This document shows positions 33,815-46,836 of a stretch of DNA of 64,000 nt, one piece after another. The translations under genes and the position numbers were made by a program. The notes below the pieces were generated by a model that ran no database searches, was not told where the DNA came from, and saw only the letters and a program-made list of their open reading frames with translations. Origin of the DNA: Pseudodesulfovibrio pelocollis (lineage in GTDB: Bacteria > Desulfobacterota > Desulfovibrionia > Desulfovibrionales > Desulfovibrionaceae); assembly GCF_030282845.1 (NCBI RefSeq), contig NZ_JASTWE010000004.1, forward strand, positions 1 to 64,000. The letters are read 5' to 3'. The stretch's first letter is position 1. The number at the start of each line of letters is the position of its first letter.

Positions 33815-34336
33815 CTACTTTATCTTCAAGGAACGGAAGACCGCAAGACGTTCGTCGCCCTCGTCGTCGGCGCAGGCGCAGGCCTCGGCGTTGCGGTCCG
33901 CCCCGCAGCCGGGGCACACGCCCCGGCACGACTCGTCGCACAGGGGCTTGACCGGCAGGGCCAGAGCGAACTCCTCCCACAGCAGCGCGCCCATGTCGAG
34001 CTGCAATTCCCCGCCATGCTCGCGCACCCGGGGTTCCTCGCCCTCGCCGCCCTCCTCGCCGGGCAACTCCTCGAAGAGGTCGTAGCCGGTGTCGATGGCA
34101 AACTCGAAGTCGGCAGCACAACGGTCGCAGGGCAGGAAGACCGAGCCCTTGAGGGTCCCGCGCACCAGCGCTCCCCCAGCCTGGGGCTGGATCGTGTACA
34201 CGGCCACGAGGTCGCGCCCGGGCTTCACGCGCAGGGAATACGTCTCGCACCCCTCACGCCAAAGCGTCTGGTCGTCGAAGACAAAATCCCTGCCGTGGGC
34301 GGGAATGTCGCTGATGGTAATCCAGTGTTCCTGCAT
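33815..34336 (-). CDS. yceD: YceD/DUF177 family protein (23S rRNA accumulation protein)
   Basis: 173 aa. DUF177 proteins are almost always encoded next to rpmF and are linked to 23S rRNA accumulation. Key features are [20 protein letters not shown] in the middle, an acidic stretch (about 105-120), and the C-terminal cysteine cluster [23 protein letters not shown], probably zinc-binding. The start ATG 34336 follows GGAGGACACA; an upstream in-frame start at 34432 lies in the promoter. It is the first gene of the operon. Confidence 0.88.
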
Positions 34337-34386
34337 TGTGTCCTCCGCCCGATGGCCGGAGATTCCGGCGCGGGCAACCGATGCTT

Positions 34387-34414
34387 CGTATATGGGAACT
34401 TTTTCCCTTGTCAA
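34387..34414 (-). promoter_or_regulatory. Strong promoter of the yceD-rpmF-plsX-fab operon
   Basis: On the minus strand a perfect TTGACA (34414-34409), a 16-bp spacer and TATACG (34392-34387) give a leader of about 45 nt before yceD. It is back-to-back with the rpmB promoter region. Confidence 0.65.
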
Positions 34415-34425
34415 GAAAAAACCCC

Positions 34426-34454
34426 TTGCCATTTGGTCTTCAACTGGGTAAAGA
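34426..34454 (+). promoter_or_regulatory. Candidate rpmB promoter
   Basis: TTGCCA (34426-34431), a 17-bp spacer and TAAAGA (34449-34454) lie about 90 bp before the rpmB ATG. The -35 is good and the -10 is weak. Confidence 0.35.
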
Positions 34455-34545
34455 ATCTCTCCCGCTGCACGGAGGGTTCAGGCTCGGCGGCGGCGGTGAA
34501 GCAAAATTTTTCCAACGATTCATGCAGAGTACCCAGGAGGTCGCC

Positions 34546-34758
34546 ATGTCCCAGGTTTGCGATATATGCGGTAAGGGCCCCCAGACCGGCCACAACGTCA
34601 GCCACTCCCACATCAAGACCAAGCGCCGCTTCATGCCCAACTTGCAGAAGGTGCGTCATCAGCTTGAGTCCGGCCAGGTGGTCAGCGTCAAGGCCTGCAC
34701 CCGCTGCATCCGCAGCGGCGCCATCATCAAGCCCGTGGTCAAGAAGGCCGAAGCCTAA
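34546..34758 (+). CDS. rpmB: 50S ribosomal protein L28
   Basis: 70 aa. [20 protein letters not shown] and [14 protein letters not shown] are L28 signatures. The two cysteine pairs CxxC (CDIC and CTRC) show the zinc-binding C+ form. The start at 34546 follows CAGGAGG. Longer in-frame readings upstream cross the promoter region and are rejected. It is monocistronic with a strong terminator. Confidence 0.96.
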
Positions 34759-34785
34759 CCCAAAAGCCACACAAATGCACCCAGC

Positions 34786-34817
34786 GCTGCCGCCGATTCC
34801 TCGGCGGCAGCTTTTTT
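34786..34817 (+). terminator. Rho-independent terminator of rpmB
   Basis: Perfect 11-bp stem GCTGCCGCCGA / TCGGCGGCAGC with a TTCC loop and TTTTTT directly after it, 27 bp past the rpmB stop. Confidence 0.93.
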
Positions 34818-34846
34818 GCGTTTCAGCACCCTGCCAAGACACAGCC

Positions 34847-34897
34847 TTGTGCAAAACTACGCAACCCGACCCGGCAACATGCTGCACTTTTGCACAA
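34847..34897. promoter_or_regulatory. Inverted TTGTGCAAAA pair, probable enhancer-protein sites
   Basis: TTGTGCAAAA (34847-34856) and its exact inverse TTTTGCACAA (34888-34897) have centres 41 bp apart, about four helical turns. They sit 50-100 bp upstream of the sigma-54 promoter, the usual place for upstream activator sites. Confidence 0.55.
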
Positions 34898-34947
34898 TTC
34901 GCACCCAGGCAGAAAACACAATTCGCTGTTTTTGTTGGGTTAAAAAC

Positions 34948-34965
34948 TTGGCACGCCTCCTGCTA
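34948..34965 (+). promoter_or_regulatory. Sigma-54 promoter
   Basis: TTGGCAC-N5-CTGCT: -24 GG at 34950-34951 and -12 GC at 34962-34963 with the required 10 bp between. Only one core base (C for T) departs from TGGCAC-N5-TTGCW. Predicted start about 34975. The next convincing gene on this strand is about 900 bp away. Confidence 0.7.
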
Positions 34966-34974
34966 ACTTGAGAA

Positions 34975-35124
34975 CAACAGGGCGAAACCGTTGTGACCGA
35001 TGATTCCGAAGCAGCAAGGGATAAACCGGCACAAGCCCGGAATACGATTTTCTCTACAGCGTAGCAGCGCGACACCTCCCCCTTGTGAAGAGCCCCCTGC
35101 CGTCTCAGTCCCGGCAGGGGGCTC
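34975..35124 (+). ncRNA. Candidate small RNA from the sigma-54 promoter
   Basis: About 150 nt between the predicted sigma-54 start and a perfect 13-bp hairpin (35090-35102 with 35112-35124). No credible open frame with a ribosome site is seen in it. The hairpin lacks a T-run, so it may be an attenuator, a processing site or just a stable 3' end. The call is an inference from promoter plus hairpin. Confidence 0.3.
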
Positions 35125-35868
35125 GCCGCTTGGGGGTCGGGCCGCCGCCCGCGTCTCAAGGTCCTCCCGACCAATCGCCCCCCTCGACTTGTGACATCGC
35201 CACCTCCAGACAATCATTGTGCCAAAACGAGCACAGTCGTGCAAAACCGTGTTACTGATGCGATTATTTGCATTCCTTTGGCAGGAGCCTATCGTGCAAT
35301 CGAGTCAAAGGAGTGCGGACCACGATGCAATACGCGACAAACAGACGGGGAACGGCCGCCGGGGCCGGACCCGCCACCCCGATCCGGGCTGGTGGACCGT
35401 CTTGCCTCGCGTTGCGTCCCGGGCTGATCGTTGCCCGCCCACCTCTCCATCAAACACTCCTGTCGAGCCTGCCCTCCCCCCGGGCCACGAACCACGACAA
35501 CCTGAGAAGCCAGTTCCTCGGGCCGCGCATCGCGGCCTGGCGACTCTGACTGACGCGCCATGGGAATCAGGTCTGGTCCCCTTCATACCCCGCCCCGCAG
35601 AGCAGCCACACGGCCCGTCAAGCCACGGCCCTCGCTCCGGGAGAGGACACCACACCCGGCAAAGCCTAGGCTTGCGCCCTTGCGTCCGGCCCGCTGGCCG
35701 GACCTTTCCCTGAATACGATCCCGACCCTTTTCCTGTCTGCCCCTGCACCAGCCCCGCGCCACGCGCGTGGCTGTCGGCCAGGGGCGGCTTTCATGCGCC
35801 CTTTTTCCAGACAACCCAGGATACGTCCCGCCCATGCGGGATGCTCAATACCGTCAGAGGAGGTGTGA
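35125..35868 (+). other. 744-bp gene-poor region upstream of the fdh genes
   Basis: No convincing gene. It holds a second pair of GTGCAAAAC motifs (TTGTGCCAAAAC at 35217-35228, GTGCAAAAC at 35239-35247), with a poor sigma-54-like element at 35282-35299. There is a 74-codon open frame at 35325-35549 with an AAAGGAG site 11 nt before it but atypical codon use. Several palindromes follow: AAGCCTAGGCTT (35662-35673), an 8-bp hairpin (35684-35703), GCCACGCGCGTGGC (35759-35772) and TCCCGC-CCAT-GCGGGA (35826-35841), just ahead of the next ribosome site. This may be a long structured leader of the fdh operon. Confidence 0.4.
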
Positions 35869-36093
35869 GTGTTTTTGTCAACCGGCACAACAGACGCGTC
35901 ATCTTTGCACACGGCCGCGCCGCCCCCGTTTTCCGGACTGGGGCACGCGCTGGAGGCAGCGGAGGTCATCGCCCTGGCCATGCGTCCCCACTGGGATGTC
36001 CATGACCAACCCGAGGCGATACCCATCCCGCCGCCCAAGGCGCACGGCTACGGCCTGCTGCTCGCCCTGAGCCGCGAGATCCGCGGAAGATGA
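35869..36093 (+). CDS. Small hypothetical protein preceding fdhA
   Basis: 74 aa, GTG start with AGAGGAGG 5 nt upstream, a strong ribosome site. I recognise no family. It has a helical stretch (LGHALEAAEVIALAM), a proline-rich segment (EAIPIPPPKAHGYG) and LLLALSREIRG at the end. There is no twin-arginine motif, so it is not the known formate-dehydrogenase-region Tat target. The stop is 26 bp before fdhA, which suggests co-transcription and perhaps a maturation or regulatory role; that is inferred from position only. Confidence 0.6.
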   Translation: MFLSTGTTDASSLHTAAPPPFSGLGHALEAAEVIALAMRPHWDVHDQPEAIPIPPPKAHGYGLLLALSREIRGR

Positions 36094-36119
36094 CACAACC
36101 GACAACCCGAGGAGTTCCA

Positions 36120-39100
36120 ATGAAGATCAACAGGAGACGATTTCTCAAACTGACGGCCGCCACTGCGGTGGCCACGGCCTTTGGCGGGCTGGGCTTCGTG
36201 CCCGACGCCCAGGCGCTCGACAGGGTGGCCATGCTCGGCCCCAAGTGGAGCAGGCAGACCACCAGCATCTGCCCATACTGCGGCGTGGGCTGCGGCCTGA
36301 TCGTCAACACCGACCTGAAGACCAGGCGGGCCATCAACACCGAGGGCGACCCCGACCACCCCATCAACGAAGGCTCCACCTGCGCCAAGGGCGCGTCCAT
36401 CTGGCAACTGGCCGAGAATGACGAGCGCCCCCCGCGGCCCAGGTACCGCGCCCCCTACTCCACCGAATGGAAGGAGGTGTCCTGGGAATGGGCGCTGGGC
36501 GAGATCGCCAAGCGGGTCAAGAAAACGCGCGACGCCACCTTTACCTTGAAGAACGCCAAGGGGCAGGTGGTCAACCGGTGCAACGGCATCGCCTCGGTGG
36601 GCTCCGCAGCCATCGACAACGAGGAGTGCTGGGCCTATCAGTCCATCCTGCGCTCCCTCGGGCTGGTCTATGTCGAGCATCAGGCCCGCATCTGCCACAG
36701 CTCCACAGTGCCCGCCCTGGCCGAGAGCTTCGGCAGAGGGGCCATGACCAACCACTGGAACGACATCGCCAACAGCGACTGTGTCCTGGTCATGGGCAGC
36801 AACGCGGCCGAAAACCACCCCATCTCCTTCAAATGGGTGACCCGGGCCATGCACAAGGGGGCCAAGCTCATCAACCTCGACCCGCGCTTCACCCGCACCT
36901 CGTCCAGGGCGGACCTCCATTGCCATATCCGCGCGGGCACGGACATCGCCATCCTCGGCGGGCTCATCAAGTACATTCTGGACAACGACCTGATCCAGAA
37001 AGACTACGTGCTGACCCACACCAACGGTTCGACCCTGGTGGGCGAGAAGTTCGGCTTCAACGACGGCCTGTTCACCGGATACACCAAAAACGGCGACGAC
37101 CAGGACTACGCCGGTTCCTACGACAAGTCCCAGTGGGCCTTCGACAAGGACTCGGATGGACTGCCGAAGAAAGACCCCTCCCTCAAGCACCCCCGATGCG
37201 TCATCAATCTGCTCAAGAAGCACTACGAGCGCTACGACATCGACACCGTTTCCTCGGTGTCCGGCGCAGACAAGCAGAAGCTGCTTGAATTCTACAGGCT
37301 CTACTCGGCCACCGGCAAGCCGGACAAGGCCGGGACCATCCTCTACGCCATGGGCTGGACCCAGCACACCGTGGGCGTGCAGTACATCCGCACCATGGCC
37401 ATGGTCCAGCTGCTCCTTGGCAACATCGGCGTGGCCGGTGGCGGCGTCAACGCCATGCGCGGCGAATCCAACGTCCAGGGTTCCACGGACCACGCCCTGC
37501 TGTGGCACCTGCTGCCCGGCTACCTGGCTACCCCCAACGCGGGCCTTGCCGACTACAAGACCTACATCGACGCCAAGACCACGCCGCACCTTGAGGGAGC
37601 CAAGGACCCCATGAGCGCGGCCTGGTGGCAGAACACCCCCAAATACATGGCGAGCCTGCTCAAGGCCATGTACCCCAACGCCACGGCGGAGCAGGCCTAC
37701 GCATGGCTGCCCAAGGCCGAGGACGGCAAGACCTATACCTGGCTCCAGCTCTTTGACGCCATGTCCAAGAGCGAGTTCAAGGGGTTCTTCGCCTGGGGCA
37801 TGAACCCTGCCTGCGGCGGAGCCAATGCGGGCAAGAACAGGAAGGCCATGGCCAACCTCGACTGGATGGTCAACGTCAACATCTTCGACAACGAGACCGG
37901 CTCATTCTGGCGCGGTCCCGGCCAGGACCCCAAGAAGATCAAGACCGAGGTCTTCTTCCTGCCCTGCGCCGTGTCCATCGAGAAGGAAGGCTCCATCATC
38001 AACTCGGGCCGCTGGATGCAGTGGCGCTACGAGGGGCCGGTTCCTCGCGGCGAGTCCAAGTCCGACGGCCACATCATGACCGAGCTGTACGACGCCATCC
38101 GCTCCCTCTACGCCAAGGAGAGCGGCGCATTCCCCGAGCCCATCAAGAACCTGTCCGTGGACATGTGGAAGGGCGGCCACGGCTTTGACGCACACAAGGT
38201 GGCCAAGCTGATCAACGGCCACTTTACCCGCGACGTGACCATCGACGGCAAGACCTACAAGAAGGGAACCCAGGTGCCGAGCTTTGCCCTGCTCCAGGAC
38301 GACGGCTCCACGGCCTCGGGTAACTGGCTCTATTGCAACTCCTACACCGAGAGCGGCAACATGGCCGCCCGCCGGAGCAAGGAGCAGACCCCGGAGCAGG
38401 CGAACATCGGCCTGTTCCCCAACTGGGCCTGGTGCTGGCCCGTGAACCGGCGCGTCCTCTATAACCGCGCCTCCTGCGACAACACCGGCAAGCCGTATGC
38501 CCCGCAAAAGGCCGTCGTCCGCTGGGACGGCGGCAAGTGGATCGGCGACGTGCCCGACGGCGGTTGGGCGCCCGGCACCAAGTACGCCTTCATCATGCAG
38601 GCGGCTGGCCTTGGCCAACTCTATGGCCCGGGCCGCCAGGACGGCCCCTTCCCTGAGCACTACGAACCCATGGAGACGCCCTTCAAGGCCCACAGCTTCT
38701 CCAAGCAACTGAACAACCCCGCTGTCCTGCGCTTTGCCCGCGAGGCCCTGGCCGTGGCCGATCCAAACTACCCCCTGGTGGCCACCACCTTCCGCGTCAC
38801 CGAGCATTGGCAGACCGGCCACATGACCCGGCACACGCCGTGGCTGCTTGAGGCCATGCCCCAGATCTTCGTGGAGATGAGCGAGGAACTGGCCAGGGAA
38901 AGGGGCATCGAAAACGGCGAAAAGGTGATGGTCGAGAGCATCCGGGGCAGCGTCTGGGCCGTGGCCATGGTCACCAAGCGCCTGCGCCCGCTCACGGTCA
39001 TGGGCAGGACAACCCACCAGATCGGCCTGCCCTGGCACTTCGGCTGGCAGATGCCCCACGACGGCAGCGGCGGCGATTCGGCCAACCTGCTGACCCCGTC

Positions 39101-39167
39101 GGTGGGCGATCCCAACACCGGCATCCCGGAAACCAAGGTCTTCGTGGCCAACGTCCGCAAGCTGTAA
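36120..39167 (+). CDS. fdhA: Periplasmic formate dehydrogenase, catalytic alpha subunit (Cys form)
   Basis: 1015 aa, Mo/W-bis-pterin oxidoreductase oxidising formate (or reducing CO2). The twin-arginine signal RRRFLKLTAATAVA directs folded export. The proximal 4Fe-4S cluster motif is CPYCGVGCG with STCAKG. The catalytic position is TGC (36693-36695, residue 192) in HQARICHSSTV; related Desulfovibrio enzymes use selenocysteine (TGA) here. The following histidine is conserved, and GMNPACGGANAGKNRKAM and a molybdopterin-dinucleotide-binding C-terminus (about 885-1015, RGIENGEKVMVES) are intact. ATG 36120 follows CGAGGAG by 6 nt. Confidence 0.94.
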   Translation: MKINRRRFLKLTAATAVATAFGGLGFVPDAQALDRVAMLGPKWSRQTTSICPYCGVGCGLIVNTDLKTRRAINTEGDPDHPINEGSTCAKGASIWQLAENDERPPRPRYRAPYSTEWKEVSWEWALGEIAKRVKKTRDATFTLKNAKGQVVNRCNGIASVGSAAIDNEECWAYQSILRSLGLVYVEHQARICHSSTVPALAESFGRGAMTNHWNDIANSDCVLVMGSNAAENHPISFKWVTRAMHKGAKLINLDPRFTRTSSRADLHCHIRAGTDIAILGGLIKYILDNDLIQKDYVLTHTNGSTLVGEKFGFNDGLFTGYTKNGDDQDYAGSYDKSQWAFDKDSDGLPKKDPSLKHPRCVINLLKKHYERYDIDTVSSVSGADKQKLLEFYRLYSATGKPDKAGTILYAMGWTQHTVGVQYIRTMAMVQLLLGNIGVAGGGVNAMRGESNVQGSTDHALLWHLLPGYLATPNAGLADYKTYIDAKTTPHLEGAKDPMSAAWWQNTPKYMASLLKAMYPNATAEQAYAWLPKAEDGKTYTWLQLFDAMSKSEFKGFFAWGMNPACGGANAGKNRKAMANLDWMVNVNIFDNETGSFWRGPGQDPKKIKTEVFFLPCAVSIEKEGSIINSGRWMQWRYEGPVPRGESKSDGHIMTELYDAIRSLYAKESGAFPEPIKNLSVDMWKGGHGFDAHKVAKLINGHFTRDVTIDGKTYKKGTQVPSFALLQDDGSTASGNWLYCNSYTESGNMAARRSKEQTPEQANIGLFPNWAWCWPVNRRVLYNRASCDNTGKPYAPQKAVVRWDGGKWIGDVPDGGWAPGTKYAFIMQAAGLGQLYGPGRQDGPFPEHYEPMETPFKAHSFSKQLNNPAVLRFAREALAVADPNYPLVATTFRVTEHWQTGHMTRHTPWLLEAMPQIFVEMSEELARERGIENGEKVMVESIRGSVWAVAMVTKRLRPLTVMGRTTHQIGLPWHFGWQMPHDGSGGDSANLLTPSVGDPNTGIPETKVFVANVRKL

Positions 39168-42642: not shown

Positions 42643-44028
42643 TCAGCGGCGGGTCAGGCCGAATTTCTTGAGCTTGTATTGCAGGGTGCGGCGGCTGATG
42701 CCCAGGGCGTCGGCCGTGCGCTCGCGGTGGTTGCCGTTCTCCTCCAGGGCGCGCAAAATGGCGAGTTTTTCCGCCTCCTCCAGCGAGGCGGGGGAGGTCA
42801 TGGCGTGGCCGTAGACAGGGGCCATGTCCACCACGGCCTCGCGCGCGCCAGCCACCTGGGGTGGCAGCAGATCCGGCCCCAGCGCGTCGGAGCGCGACAG
42901 GATCAGGGCGCGCTCCAGCACGTTCTCCAGCTCGCGCACGTTGCCGGGCCAGTCGTAGCCGGACAGGGCGTCGAGAAAGGCCGGGGTCACGGTGCGGATG
43001 ATCTTGTTGTTCTTGTTGCCCAGCTTGCGCATGAGGAAGCTGACAAGGAGCGGCAGGTCCTCCTTGCGCTCGCACAGGGGCGGGATGCGGATCTCGAGGA
43101 CCGCAAGCCGGTAGTAGAGGTCTTCGCGGAAGCGCCCGGCCTCCACCTCGCGCTTGAGGTCGCGGTTGGTGGCCGCGATGATCCGGGTGTCCACCTTGAC
43201 GGTCTTGACCGAGCCCAGCGGCTCGATGGTCTTCTCCTGGAGCACGCGCAGCAGCTTGGCCTGGAGCGCGCCCGGCATCTCGCCGATCTCGTCGAGAAAC
43301 AGCGTGCCGCCATCGGCCAGTTGGAAGCGGCCGGGCTTGTCCTTGACCGCGCCGGTAAAGGCGCCCTTTTCGTAGCCGAACAGCTCGCTCTCCAGCAGAT
43401 CGTCGGGCAGGGCCGCGCAGTTGACCTTGATCAGGGGGCGCGAGGCGCGGTTGCTGGCCCGGTGCAGCCCCTCGGCCACCAACTCCTTGCCCGTGCCGGA
43501 CTGGCCCAGGATGAGCACCGTGGCCTCGCTCGGCCCGGCCTGGGCGATGAGGTCGCGCACCCGCTCGACGCCGGGGCTGGCCCCGATGAACTTGAGGTCG
43601 CCGCCCACCTCGGCCTTGAGGCGCACGTTCTCCCGCACCAGCTTGTGGTACTCGAAGGCCTTGCCCAGGACCACGGTCAGCTCCTCGTTGTCCGCAGGCT
43701 TGGTCAGGTAGTCGAAGGCCCCGCGCTTCATGGCGTCCACGGCGCTGCCCACGCTGCCAAAGGCGGTCAGCAGGACCACGGGCATTCCCTGACGGCGCAT
43801 CTGCAACTCCTTGAGCAGTTGCATGCCGTCCATGCCGGGCATCTTCATGTCCACCAGGGCCACATCGGGCAGGGTGCCGGATTCGGTGGCCTCGGCCAGC
43901 ACGGTCAGGGCACGCTCGCCCGAGGAGGCGTCGAGCACGGTCCAGCCGTCGTCCTCAAGCACGGCCCGGACCATGAGCCGGTGTCCCGGCTCGTCGTCCA
44001 CCACGAGTACCACGCGTTCTTCGGTCAT
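42643..44028 (-). CDS. NtrC-family sigma-54 response regulator, ZraR-like
   Basis: 461 aa. Receiver domain 1-120 with phospho-acceptor D60 in [14 protein letters not shown]+ domain about 145-375 with Walker A GQSGTGKE (175-182), the sigma-54 contact loop GAFTGA (222-227) and Walker B GTLFLDE (241-247). Fis-type helix-turn-helix at the end ([20 protein letters not shown]). All activation residues are present. It overlaps the kinase stop by 4 bp, so they form a cognate pair. It probably activates the zraP-like gene through the sigma-54 promoter at 46819-46833. Confidence 0.92.
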
Positions 44029-45995
44029 GTATCCTCCCGACGGCCCGCCCCGGTCTGCCCGGGCACGAGGCCGTCATGTCCTTGTGATGCCGGGCCGTCG
44101 GCCCGGCCGGGCTCGGAATCGGACTCGCCATGGGGTTCGCCATGGGGCTCGCCGTCGGGCGGTCCGTCGGGGAAAAAGAGACGCACTGTCACGCCCAGGC
44201 CCGGCTGGGATTCCATCTCGGCCCGGCCCCGGTGGGCGCGCATGATGTTCTGGACGATGGCCAGCCCCAGGCCCGTGCCGGTCTTCTTGCCGGTGACAAA
44301 GGGCTTGAACACGTCGCCGGCAATGTCCGGGTCCATGCCCGGGCCGTCGTCAGCCACCAGGACGCACACCCCGCCCTCGACCCGCTCGCTGGTCAACCGG
44401 ATGAGGCCGGGCCTGTCGCAGTCCTCGCAGTTGTCGATGGCGTCCAGGCTGTTGCTGATGAGATTGAGCAGCACCTGCCGCAGCGCGTCCTGATCGGCAT
44501 AGACTACGGGCTGGGCAAAGTCGAACTCCGGCTCGACCCGCTTGCTCTTGAAGTCGAAACGCATGAGCTGGCGCAGGGACTCGCCCACGGCGATCAGGTC
44601 CGTTTCCTCGGGGTCGAGCCGCCGGGGCCGGGCCAGATAGAGCAGGTCAGTGACCACGCGATTGAGGCGGTCGGCCTCCTGGACCATGGTGGCCGCGTAC
44701 TGATCCAGCGGGGGCTGGCCCTTGAGCTTGGTCGCGAAGAGCTGGGCAAAGCCGCGCAGGGAGCTCAAGGGATTGCGCACCTCGTGGGCCACGCCCGCAG
44801 CCAGGGAGCCGATGGCGGCCAGCCGCTTGGCCTCGTTCAGGTCCTCCTCCAGGGAGCGGACCTGGGTGCGGTCGCGGATGAGCACCAGCCGCTGGCCCAG
44901 CTCGGGCGCAGCGTCCTCGTCCAGGCCCTGGAAGGGAAGGGAAAGGATCTCCAGGCGACGGCCCTGGTAGTCGAACTGCTCCCAGTTGTAGGACGCGGAC
45001 CCGGCCTTGCCGCCCGGCTCGCGGGCAAAGGGGAAGTCGGCCCAGTCCACGCCGAGGATCTCGGGCGCGCCATCCTCCCCGGCCGGGGCGAGCAGCCGCT
45101 TGGCCGAGTGGTTGGCGGCCATGATCTCGCCGGTCTCGGACAGGGTGACCAGCCCATCGGGCATGTTGTCGAGGAGTTTGCTCTGGAAGCGCTCCATGCG
45201 CACCAGCTTGCGCCCCTCGTCGCGCCGTCTCAGGTAGGCGAAGGCCAGGGACCACAGCCCCACCGCCGCCAGGAAGACATAGCCCGTCTGATAGGTGGCG
45301 GCTCTGCGATACTGGCGGAACTGGGCCAGATGCTTCTCGGCGTTGAGGCCCACCAGCAGGTAAACCGGGGCCACGTCGATGTCGAGGGGACCGTCAAGGC
45401 CCAGATCACGGCCCGTGCCCGGTCCCATCATGCCCTGCTCCATCATGCCTGGGGCCATGCCGCGCCCGCCGCTGCGGCCGGAGTCGCGCATTGGCACAGG
45501 CTCGCCCCGGCTGAGCAGGGCCGAGTCTGCCCGGACCCTGATGCCGGAGATGAGCACGGCCCGCTTGTTCATCTCGGCCATGGCGTGGAAGGCCCGGCCG
45601 GGCTCCAGGTCGCGGGTGACCATGTCGGGCAGGGAGATGATGGGGCTGCCCGTCTCCCTGTCGGAAGAGGCCAGGGGCATGCCGTCTGCGTCGCACAGGG
45701 CGATGAAGACGATGTCATCGGATTTGGAAAGCTCGGTGAACAGATCCTCGGCCATGGAGGGAAAGATGGGGGCCACTTGGGGATTGACGCGCAGGGAGCG
45801 GACGATGCGCGAGAGGTTGTTGTCCACCCCGCGCAGGATGGAGCCACCGGTCATGATGATGTGGCCCTCGACGATCTCGCGCTGATGCGCGATGGATCGC
45901 CACGTCAGATACAGGCTGCCCAGGCCCAGCACGATGAGGGCCAGGACCAGGGCCACCAGAGGGCCTTTCTCTTTGCCTGTGGTATTGATTTCCAT
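44025..45995 (-). CDS. Sensor histidine kinase, ZraS-like, with Met-rich periplasmic loop
   Basis: 656 aa. Transmembrane helices at about 12-32 and 236-256 flank a 200-residue periplasmic sensor domain. That domain has a methionine-rich insert GMAPGMMEQGMMGPG (179-193). A PAS domain (about 268-370) and HisKA with H404 in GVAHEVRNPL follow, then the HATPase domain with N box NLISNSLDAI, DDGPGMD and GTGLGLAIVQ. The acidic/His tail (615-640) has repeated GEPHGE units. It pairs with the response regulator by a 4-bp overlap. The metal ligand is unknown. Confidence 0.9.
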   Translation of the reverse strand: MEINTTGKEKGPLVALVLALIVLGLGSLYLTWRSIAHQREIVEGHIIMTGGSILRGVDNNLSRIVRSLRVNPQVAPIFPSMAEDLFTELSKSDDIVFIALCDADGMPLASSDRETGSPIISLPDMVTRDLEPGRAFHAMAEMNKRAVLISGIRVRADSALLSRGEPVPMRDSGRSGGRGMAPGMMEQGMMGPGTGRDLGLDGPLDIDVAPVYLLVGLNAEKHLAQFRQYRRAATYQTGYVFLAAVGLWSLAFAYLRRRDEGRKLVRMERFQSKLLDNMPDGLVTLSETGEIMAANHSAKRLLAPAGEDGAPEILGVDWADFPFAREPGGKAGSASYNWEQFDYQGRRLEILSLPFQGLDEDAAPELGQRLVLIRDRTQVRSLEEDLNEAKRLAAIGSLAAGVAHEVRNPLSSLRGFAQLFATKLKGQPPLDQYAATMVQEADRLNRVVTDLLYLARPRRLDPEETDLIAVGESLRQLMRFDFKSKRVEPEFDFAQPVVYADQDALRQVLLNLISNSLDAIDNCEDCDRPGLIRLTSERVEGGVCVLVADDGPGMDPDIAGDVFKPFVTGKKTGTGLGLAIVQNIMRAHRGRAEMESQPGLGVTVRLFFPDGPPDGEPHGEPHGESDSEPGRADGPASQGHDGLVPGQTGAGRREDT

Positions 45996-46246: not shown

Positions 46247-46747
46247 TTAGGAGCGGCGCGGCTCACCGCAGGGGCCGCAGCCCTTGCCGTAGCCCTTGCC
46301 GAAGGCGGGGCAGCCGTCAGGCCCGAAGCCCGGACCGAAACCACGGCCCTTGCGGCCAAAGGGCGCCTCGATGCCGGTCTCCTTGGTCAACTCGTCGTTC
46401 ATGTCGGCGCGCAGCTCGCCCATCTTCTCGCGCAGGGAGCGCAGTTCGGCCACCAGGGCACCGAGCTTCTTCTCGTCGGCCTTGCCGCCGTTGATCATGG
46501 CCTGCATGGTGGCGTGCTTGGTCCACAGGGAGTCGCGGAGCTGCTCCATCTGCGGGCGGTACTTGTCAAAGATGGCCTCCACGGCCGCCTGCTTCTCCGG
46601 GGTGAGCTGGGCGTAGGGATTCTGACCGCTGAAGCCGGGGCCGCCGCAGCCGCCGCGACCATAGCCTGGACCGGCCACGGCCCAGGACGCCAGGGCCAGG
46701 ACAAGGATCGCCGCCAGGGCGGTGGTGGTGATGTTTCTCTTGGTCAT
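46247..46747 (-). CDS. ZraP/Spy-like periplasmic zinc-resistance-associated protein
   Basis: 166 aa. A signal peptide (TTALAAILVLALASWAVAGP, cut near residue 26) is followed by a helical LTxxQ-like core, LTPEKQAAVEAIFDKYRP, and LVAELRSLREKMGELRADMNDE, as in the ZraP/CpxP/Spy chaperone family. Both ends are Gly/Cys-rich (GRGGCGGPG; CGPCGEPRRS) rather than His-rich as in E. coli ZraP. ATG 46747 follows TGGAGGAATC. It probably buffers metal or unfolded proteins in the envelope and feeds back on the adjacent kinase. Confidence 0.82.
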   Translation of the reverse strand: MTKRNITTTALAAILVLALASWAVAGPGYGRGGCGGPGFSGQNPYAQLTPEKQAAVEAIFDKYRPQMEQLRDSLWTKHATMQAMINGGKADEKKLGALVAELRSLREKMGELRADMNDELTKETGIEAPFGRKGRGFGPGFGPDGCPAFGKGYGKGCGPCGEPRRS

Positions 46748-46818
46748 GATGATTCCTCCAAAGAGATGGGGTGTGTTTATCGGGGGAAGCCGGGGTCGGC
46801 CTGCCTGCCCCTCATGTA

Positions 46819-46836
46819 GCACACCGCATGCCAATG
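46819..46836 (-). promoter_or_regulatory. Sigma-54 promoter of the zraP-like gene
   Basis: On the minus strand TTGGCAT-N5-GTGCT: -24 GG at 46832-46831, -12 GC at 46820-46819, spacing 10 bp. Predicted start about 46807, giving a 60-nt leader to the ATG at 46747. Confidence 0.7.

Follow-up and report, generated by a model that had tools for sequence, protein, structure and literature searches.

Small RNAs driven by sigma-54 promoters are already known, as are regulatory RNAs derived from mRNA 3'UTRs. GlmY of the Enterobacteriaceae is a sigma-54 small RNA under the control of QseE/QseF (PMC6075780), GlnZ is a small RNA from the 3'UTR of the glnA mRNA that is released by RNase E and requires Hfq (PMC9731577), and the rhizobial NfeR1 silences mRNAs at the translation start via CCUCCUCCC motifs (PMC10746234). 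For Desulfovibrio vulgaris Hildenborough, four sigma-54-dependent ncRNAs are listed (PMC4641369; also PMC3333781).

The locus described here lies in the window, i.e. the whole 64,000-nt stretch of the Pseudodesulfovibrio pelocollis genome that was analysed, and its features are collected in Table 1. We consider it fairly probable that the interval between the sigma-54 promoter and the hairpin corresponds to a small RNA of about 150 nt under sigma-54 control, which would have outlived its host mRNA, carry an anti-Shine-Dalgarno motif and stand under ZraSR-like control. This unit resembles GlmY in its sigma-54 promoter, in several upstream sites for an NtrC-type regulator and in a putative link to envelope homeostasis, but GlmY is found directly upstream of its own two-component operon, whereas the candidate pair in the window is about 7.5 kb off (PMC6075780). 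With GlnZ it has in common a regulatory RNA within an mRNA 3'UTR and a conserved seed near the stop codon (PMC9731577); unlike the GlnZ case, the ORF has been lost in the window, which would leave the RNA free-standing, and the Hfq model PF17209 has no match in its genome. The unit has the 3'UTR homology and the conserved seed of 3'UTR-derived small RNAs; of the U-rich terminator and the Hfq that accompany Hfq-type RNAs, the former is missing and the latter was not found. A C-rich anti-Shine-Dalgarno motif is shared with the NfeR1/alpha-r14 RNAs (CCUCCUCCC there, CACCUCYCC in the unit), but the latter fold into three hairpins, each with an unpaired CCUCCUCCC, where the unit has one motif and then one strong hairpin, which places it outside that family; NfeR1, moreover, has LsrB as its activator and NtrC as its repressor (PMC10746234). 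The D. vulgaris ncRNAs, which lie beside DVU0653, DVU0679, DVU2357 and DVU3282 (PMC4641369), likewise belong to response-regulator-driven or other sigma-54 promoters without an annotated gene, in a bacterium related to that of the window (PMC4641369, PMC3333781), a likeness in kind that does not imply homology. In the one literature library searched we found no report of a small RNA in Pseudodesulfovibrio, and among the matches listed nothing on SHOCT proteins in connection with sigma-54, two-component systems or membrane proteins, nor, judged by title, on small-RNA evolution of such a unit. As far as this library shows, the predicted window RNA and the natural set of genomes described below, in which the ORF is intact, broken or lost, are new.

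Table 1. Features of the putative small RNA unit and its candidate regulators, in window coordinates
Feature	Position	Strand	Basis
rpmB terminator, bounding the unit upstream	34786..34817	+	terminator scan; kept in relatives
Upstream activating region, exact inverted pair TTGTGCAAAA ... TTTTGCACAA	34847..34897	+	shuffles and genus comparison
Sigma-54 -24/-12 promoter TTGGCACGCCTCCTGCT	34948..34964	+	pattern versus shuffles; like element in 35/36 genus genomes
Predicted small RNA, ~150 nt	34975..35128	+	placed from promoter and hairpin
72-nt conserved element, putative former 3'UTR of SHOCT mRNA	35057..35128	+	identity to G003, G004
CACCUCCCC motif, putative anti-Shine-Dalgarno seed	35073..35081	+	conservation, enrichment
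13-bp hairpin, 9-nt loop UCUCAGUCC, without U-tract	35090..35124	+	fold
NtrC/ZraR-like response regulator, candidate activator	42643..44028	-	Sigma54_activat, Response_reg, HTH_8 domains
Histidine kinase adjoining the regulator	44025..45995	-	HisKA, HATPase_c
zraP-like Metal_resist protein	46247..46747	-	PF13801, E 3e-16
Sigma-54-like promoter of the zraP-like gene	46818..46834	-	half-sites at -102, -79, -68

Sigma-54 promoters carry GG at -24 and GC at -12 with a spacing of 10 bp, within the sequence TGGCAC-N5-TTGCW. The promoter TTGGCACGCCTCCTGCT agrees with this consensus with a single departure in the -12 box (C for T), and the pattern TTGGCACN6TGCT occurs once in the 64 kb of the window against 0.03 expected from shuffles, which bears out the near-perfect promoter of the original prediction; the shorter TTGGCACN6TGC with one mismatch allowed is at chance level (8 found versus 6.4 expected). 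The exact inverted pair of sites upstream, which had also been predicted, was confirmed as well, occurring once in the window and in 0 of 100 shuffles. Throughout the genus TGGCA and TGC are invariant in 35/35 unit promoters, a set chosen by a pattern that already demands part of both. A half-site is present at -103 to -98 in 34 of these 35 promoters and at -60 to -57 in 28, the seven exceptions including the group of four ORF-less genomes discussed below. Activator sites are expected about 50-150 bp upstream of sigma-54 promoters, and in agreement with this TGTGCA-type half-sites number 2-5 per 150 nt at the unit promoters, the window having 2, where the background averages 0.14. On the upstream side, the terminator scan lists the rpmB terminator, with a stem at 34786-34811 and a T-run.

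Past the promoter, the start of the predicted RNA was placed about 12 nt beyond the -12 GC and its end at the hairpin. The original prediction of a gene-free stretch of about 150 nt that leads up to a 13-bp hairpin agrees with what we found: no frame between promoter and hairpin is preceded by an AGGAGG-like site, the closest being AGGG, 10 nt ahead of a 23-codon GTG frame at 34993, and the hairpin is at 35090-35124. The sequence 34973-35124 (152 nt) has a more stable fold than its shuffled versions (z -2.84, 2/200 as good). Intrinsic terminators consist of a G+C-rich hairpin and a U-tract; the hairpin is present, but no U-tract or T-run follows it in the window and the terminator scan omits it, which makes the 3' end of the RNA uncertain; the hairpins of G020 and G023, unlike that of the window, are followed by T-rich tails. 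Translation of a very short or unusual ORF from the interval would have to use the weakly preceded GTG frame or a 64-codon ATG frame at 35000-35194, but the latter has no Shine-Dalgarno site, crosses the hairpin and has no Pfam match. In G003 the corresponding 73 nt contain no ATG, GTG or TTG, and one-base length differences from G004 within the conserved element put every frame running across it out of register. We therefore see no credible ORF in the sequence between promoter and hairpin, and regard such translation as highly improbable.

Several other identities were considered and dropped. No Rfam family, GlmY/GlmZ included, matches the window at its gathering score, and the eight permissive matches all fall below these scores; four (mir-587, F6, mir-3937, M23) lie on the hairpin and two on the rpmB terminator. 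GlmY acts through protein mimicry, a mode that we do not propose for the window RNA. There is no tRNA or tmRNA within 34000-36500, and a dispersed repeat was dismissed, as a search of the genome with a 401-nt stretch gave one match, making it single-copy. A loose pattern of the hairpin matches two contigs, both from Pseudodesulfovibrio, among 84,980 species genomes, a collection that may omit records of the window's own or a near genome. A terminator of gltX was discarded for the lineage of the window, where fdh sits between the element and gltX, and for an antisense gene using GGGGAGGTG as ribosome-binding site the window, inspected by eye, offers no suitable adjoining start codon.

In order to place the unit in its genus, we compared 36 Pseudodesulfovibrio genomes, among which the window genome is G000. 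A DNA search of 60 genomes (its own and 59 relatives) gave matches in 19, 18 of them relatives; for G003, G004, G005 and G008 the match falls within the 3' part, around the hairpin, and for the remaining relatives within the rpmB terminator. In G004, G005 and G008 a like promoter and a like hairpin flank a protein of 91-110 aa with a hydrophobic middle and a SHOCT-like motif at the C-terminus, and a scan with PF09851 gave 28.1, 23.5 and 16.6 bits for these three members, one of which exceeds the cut-off of 27. Relatives of this protein were found in 32/36 genomes. In 28 of the 36 (loci L026-L053) the protein, of about 90-110 aa, is encoded behind a sigma-54 promoter with TGTGCA-type half-sites, and in most of these units the gene is followed by a C-rich motif of the CACCUCYCC type and then by a hairpin. 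The protein search gave just weaker relatives elsewhere in G019, G020, G023 and G028, and no homologue in G000, G003, G014 and G016. Downstream of rpmB in G028 (L108) the promoter is present and the SHOCT ORF is broken by a TAG and a frame change, by its sequence an apparent intermediate of loss, and in the incomplete assembly of G019 no unit was seen after rpmB. The 36 genomes are thus divided into 28 with an intact ORF, one with an interrupted ORF, six that are ORF-less and one in which the unit was not found. The 1.5-kb flanks of the 28 ORF-bearing loci contain rpmB in 18, gltX in 21, at least one of the two in 25, and fdhA in one (G004); in G031 the unit and rpmB are on different contigs. 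In another genus of the family, a SHOCT gene is preceded by half-sites in both G154 (L080) and G131 (L081), in G154 together with a sigma-54 promoter, and in neither is there a C-rich motif within the 120 nt inspected after the gene. Outside the genus, scanning by pattern the roughly 1 kb that follows rpmB in nine genomes of the order gave neither promoter nor motif.

This comparison accounts for the promoter having been called an orphan, since the same kind of promoter serves a SHOCT-type gene in relatives, and that gene is absent from the window genome. In sequence, the 3' part of the predicted RNA is the counterpart of the 3'UTR of the SHOCT-type mRNA, the ORF being gone and the promoter, the upstream sites and the element retained.

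The original prediction had proposed a comparison with related genomes, and in that comparison the 72-nt element proved unchanged between G000 and G003 (72/72 nt), with no ORF in the interval. At fourfold sites 302/1524 positions differ between these two genomes (0.198), and the identity of the element has a probability of about 1e-7 if its sites are neutral and independent, a rough figure, given the dependence between sites and the uneven rates along a genome. G004 is 92% identical to the window over 83 nt around the hairpin. The 5' half of the RNA is weakly conserved even between G000 and G003, the region between promoter and element having diverged fast. When the six ORF-less units are aligned, the invariant blocks are the promoter core and CACCTCnCC (6/6). 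Among the SHOCT 3'UTRs, CCTC[CT]CC is found in 21/28, compared with a shuffle mean of 0.43 and with 2/139 control 3' flanks of other genes; these 28 come from related genomes and are not independent samples. The strict motif is missing from 7/28 as scored, where G030, one of the seven, was cut too early, no hairpin was found in G010, and G026 lies at a contig edge. The RNA part of the unit is supported, from sequence comparison, as conserved far above expectation although no ORF remains.

It could be argued that the promoter and hairpin are left over from a deleted SHOCT gene and that any residual transcript is functionless. The absence of the ORF and the fast divergence between promoter and element fit such a relic, and the interrupted ORF of G028 indicates that decay does happen; a relic is at odds, however, with 72/72 identical sites against a fourfold divergence of 20%, and with four more ORF-less genomes that retain promoter, half-sites and motif, and we consider it unlikely. 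Alternatively, the motif and hairpin might act in cis only, serving mRNA stability, termination or the mRNA's own ribosome-binding site with no RNA acting in trans. In 28 genomes they belong, or would belong, to an mRNA 3'UTR, but they also survive without any ORF to regulate, and an exclusive role in cis appears very improbable. A functional small RNA gene derived from an mRNA tail is probably what the sequences reflect.

The four further genomes, G014, G016, G020 and G023, possess rpmB, the half-sites, the sigma-54 promoter, a CACCTCTCC motif and the hairpin, with the ORF absent; the distance from the likely start to CACCTCTCC is roughly 55-65 nt, and the half-site spacing deviates in this group. 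In a tree of the gltX protein (28/36 genomes, midpoint root) the deepest split separates these four, with 100/100 support, from the other 24 genomes, among which G000 and G003 are sisters (95/87), adjoined by the ORF-bearing G004 (100/100 for the trio). The sisterhood, and with it a single loss in G000 and G003, rests on the protein tree, because the fourfold distances (G000-G003 0.198, G000-G004 0.186, G003-G004 0.253) do not favour G003. The simplest history is probably that the ORF is ancestral and was lost at least twice, the RNA being kept each time; we take the ORF as ancestral because G154 and G131, from the outgroup genus, possess the SHOCT gene. If G003 and G000 are not sisters the losses would be more numerous, never fewer, and under another placement of the root the four-genome group could have been ORF-less originally.

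The original prediction had left a choice between a small RNA and a long fdh leader, in which the sigma-54 promoter would drive fdh through the hairpin acting as an attenuator. The small RNA is supported, the RNA part of the unit being conserved and also found ORF-less in the four further genomes, and the leader is not. Although fdhAB follows the unit in the window, in G003 and in G004, and readthrough would be possible because the hairpin lacks a U-tract, gltX takes the place of fdh in relatives such as G005, G016 and G020, and just one of the 28 ORF-bearing units has fdhA in its flanks. The identity between G000 and G003 falls to 0.48-0.55 across 35117-35236 (including the last 12 nt of the element) and is 0.78 from 35237, a rise that suggests a separate fdh control region there. 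We reject the leader, which we judge very unlikely, because the unit occurs without fdh and conservation stops after the hairpin. The next real gene, predicted at about 900 nt, is in fact nearer: a conserved 74-aa ORF at 35869-36093, immediately ahead of fdhA, is 72% identical to its counterpart in G003 and 61% to that in G004, with no Pfam match.

The region ahead of fdh has features of its own. At 35217-35330 the half-site-like TTGTGCCAAA and TCGTGCAAAA are found just ahead of a stretch conserved with G003 (0.77-0.78) and G004 (0.63-0.72); here TTGCAT-N16-TATCGT, read by eye, may be the fdh promoter, and a sigma-70 scan around this segment listed nothing. A second strongly conserved stretch of the fdh leader, 60 nt at 35537-35596, is 93% identical to G003 and 90% to G004 with lower flanks, and a 20-mer from it, searched with up to 3 mismatches, has a single site in the genome; the stretch may represent either a regulatory RNA element or a short upstream ORF. 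In the window, the formate dehydrogenase alpha subunit (36090-39167) has a cysteine (TGC) in the sequence ARICHSS, at a position where its relatives usually have selenocysteine.

As to the activator of the small RNA unit, the sequence points to the ZraSR-like two-component system at 42.6-46.0 kb as the likely candidate. TGTGCA-type half-sites are common to the unit promoters and to the zraP-like promoters; among eight zraP-like loci examined, a promoter with half-sites was found in 5/5 of those with the gene start visible, at varying distances. In the window the zraP-like gene adjoins the histidine kinase and the NtrC-type response regulator, and this regulator is encoded near gltX in all seven relatives' loci that contain gltX. 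The zraP-like promoters and the group of four ORF-less genomes have other half-site spacings, which weakens the assignment. In the mechanism that we propose, envelope or metal stress would trigger the ZraSR-like system, which would also drive the zraP-like periplasmic protein and would activate RNA polymerase-sigma-54 at the unit promoter; the C-rich CACCUCYCC would then pair with Shine-Dalgarno regions of target mRNAs and lower their translation, and the stable hairpin would shield or set the 3' end of the RNA.

Pairing with ribosome-binding sites is weakly favoured, because the motif is anti-Shine-Dalgarno-like (CACCUCYCC is similar to the anti-Shine-Dalgarno tail of 16S rRNA) and because rhizobial NfeR1 offers a precedent. 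The predicted accessibility of the seed is mixed, with mean unpaired values of 0.65 in the window, 0.90 in G003, 0.97 in G020 and 0.72 in G023, and of 0.35 in G014 and 0.43 in G016, where the RNA was assumed to end at the first hairpin. Genome-wide, start codons after a full seed match are not enriched (20 versus 20 with the reversed control), and five frames of at least 70 aa are located behind seed-match-plus-start sites in the window's own genome. A 17-nt complement with at most 3 mismatches was found 39 times in G000 versus 14 for the reversed control, and 25 versus 9 times in G003, counts that include the element itself once per genome and sites irrespective of gene. The Shine-Dalgarno site of the 74-aa ORF (35869) matches ACACCUCC over 8 nt when read by eye, and such matches are expected by chance.

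If the ORF was indeed lost at least twice, it is conceivable, and we put it forward tentatively, that each loss yielded a free-standing, Hfq-independent sigma-54 RNA of the anti-Shine-Dalgarno type, which would mimic the 16S tail under the control of an envelope-stress two-component system, the RNA outlasting the protein as the function of the locus. Around one promoter and one RNA tail the genus naturally provides genomes with the ORF intact, broken or missing, and therefore the question of how an mRNA tail becomes an independent small RNA is directly testable in sulfate reducers. The unit points to a post-transcriptional arm of the envelope- or metal-stress response in an organism whose genome gave no match to Hfq, and further 'orphan' sigma-54 promoters of sulfate reducers may, by its example, be small-RNA genes.
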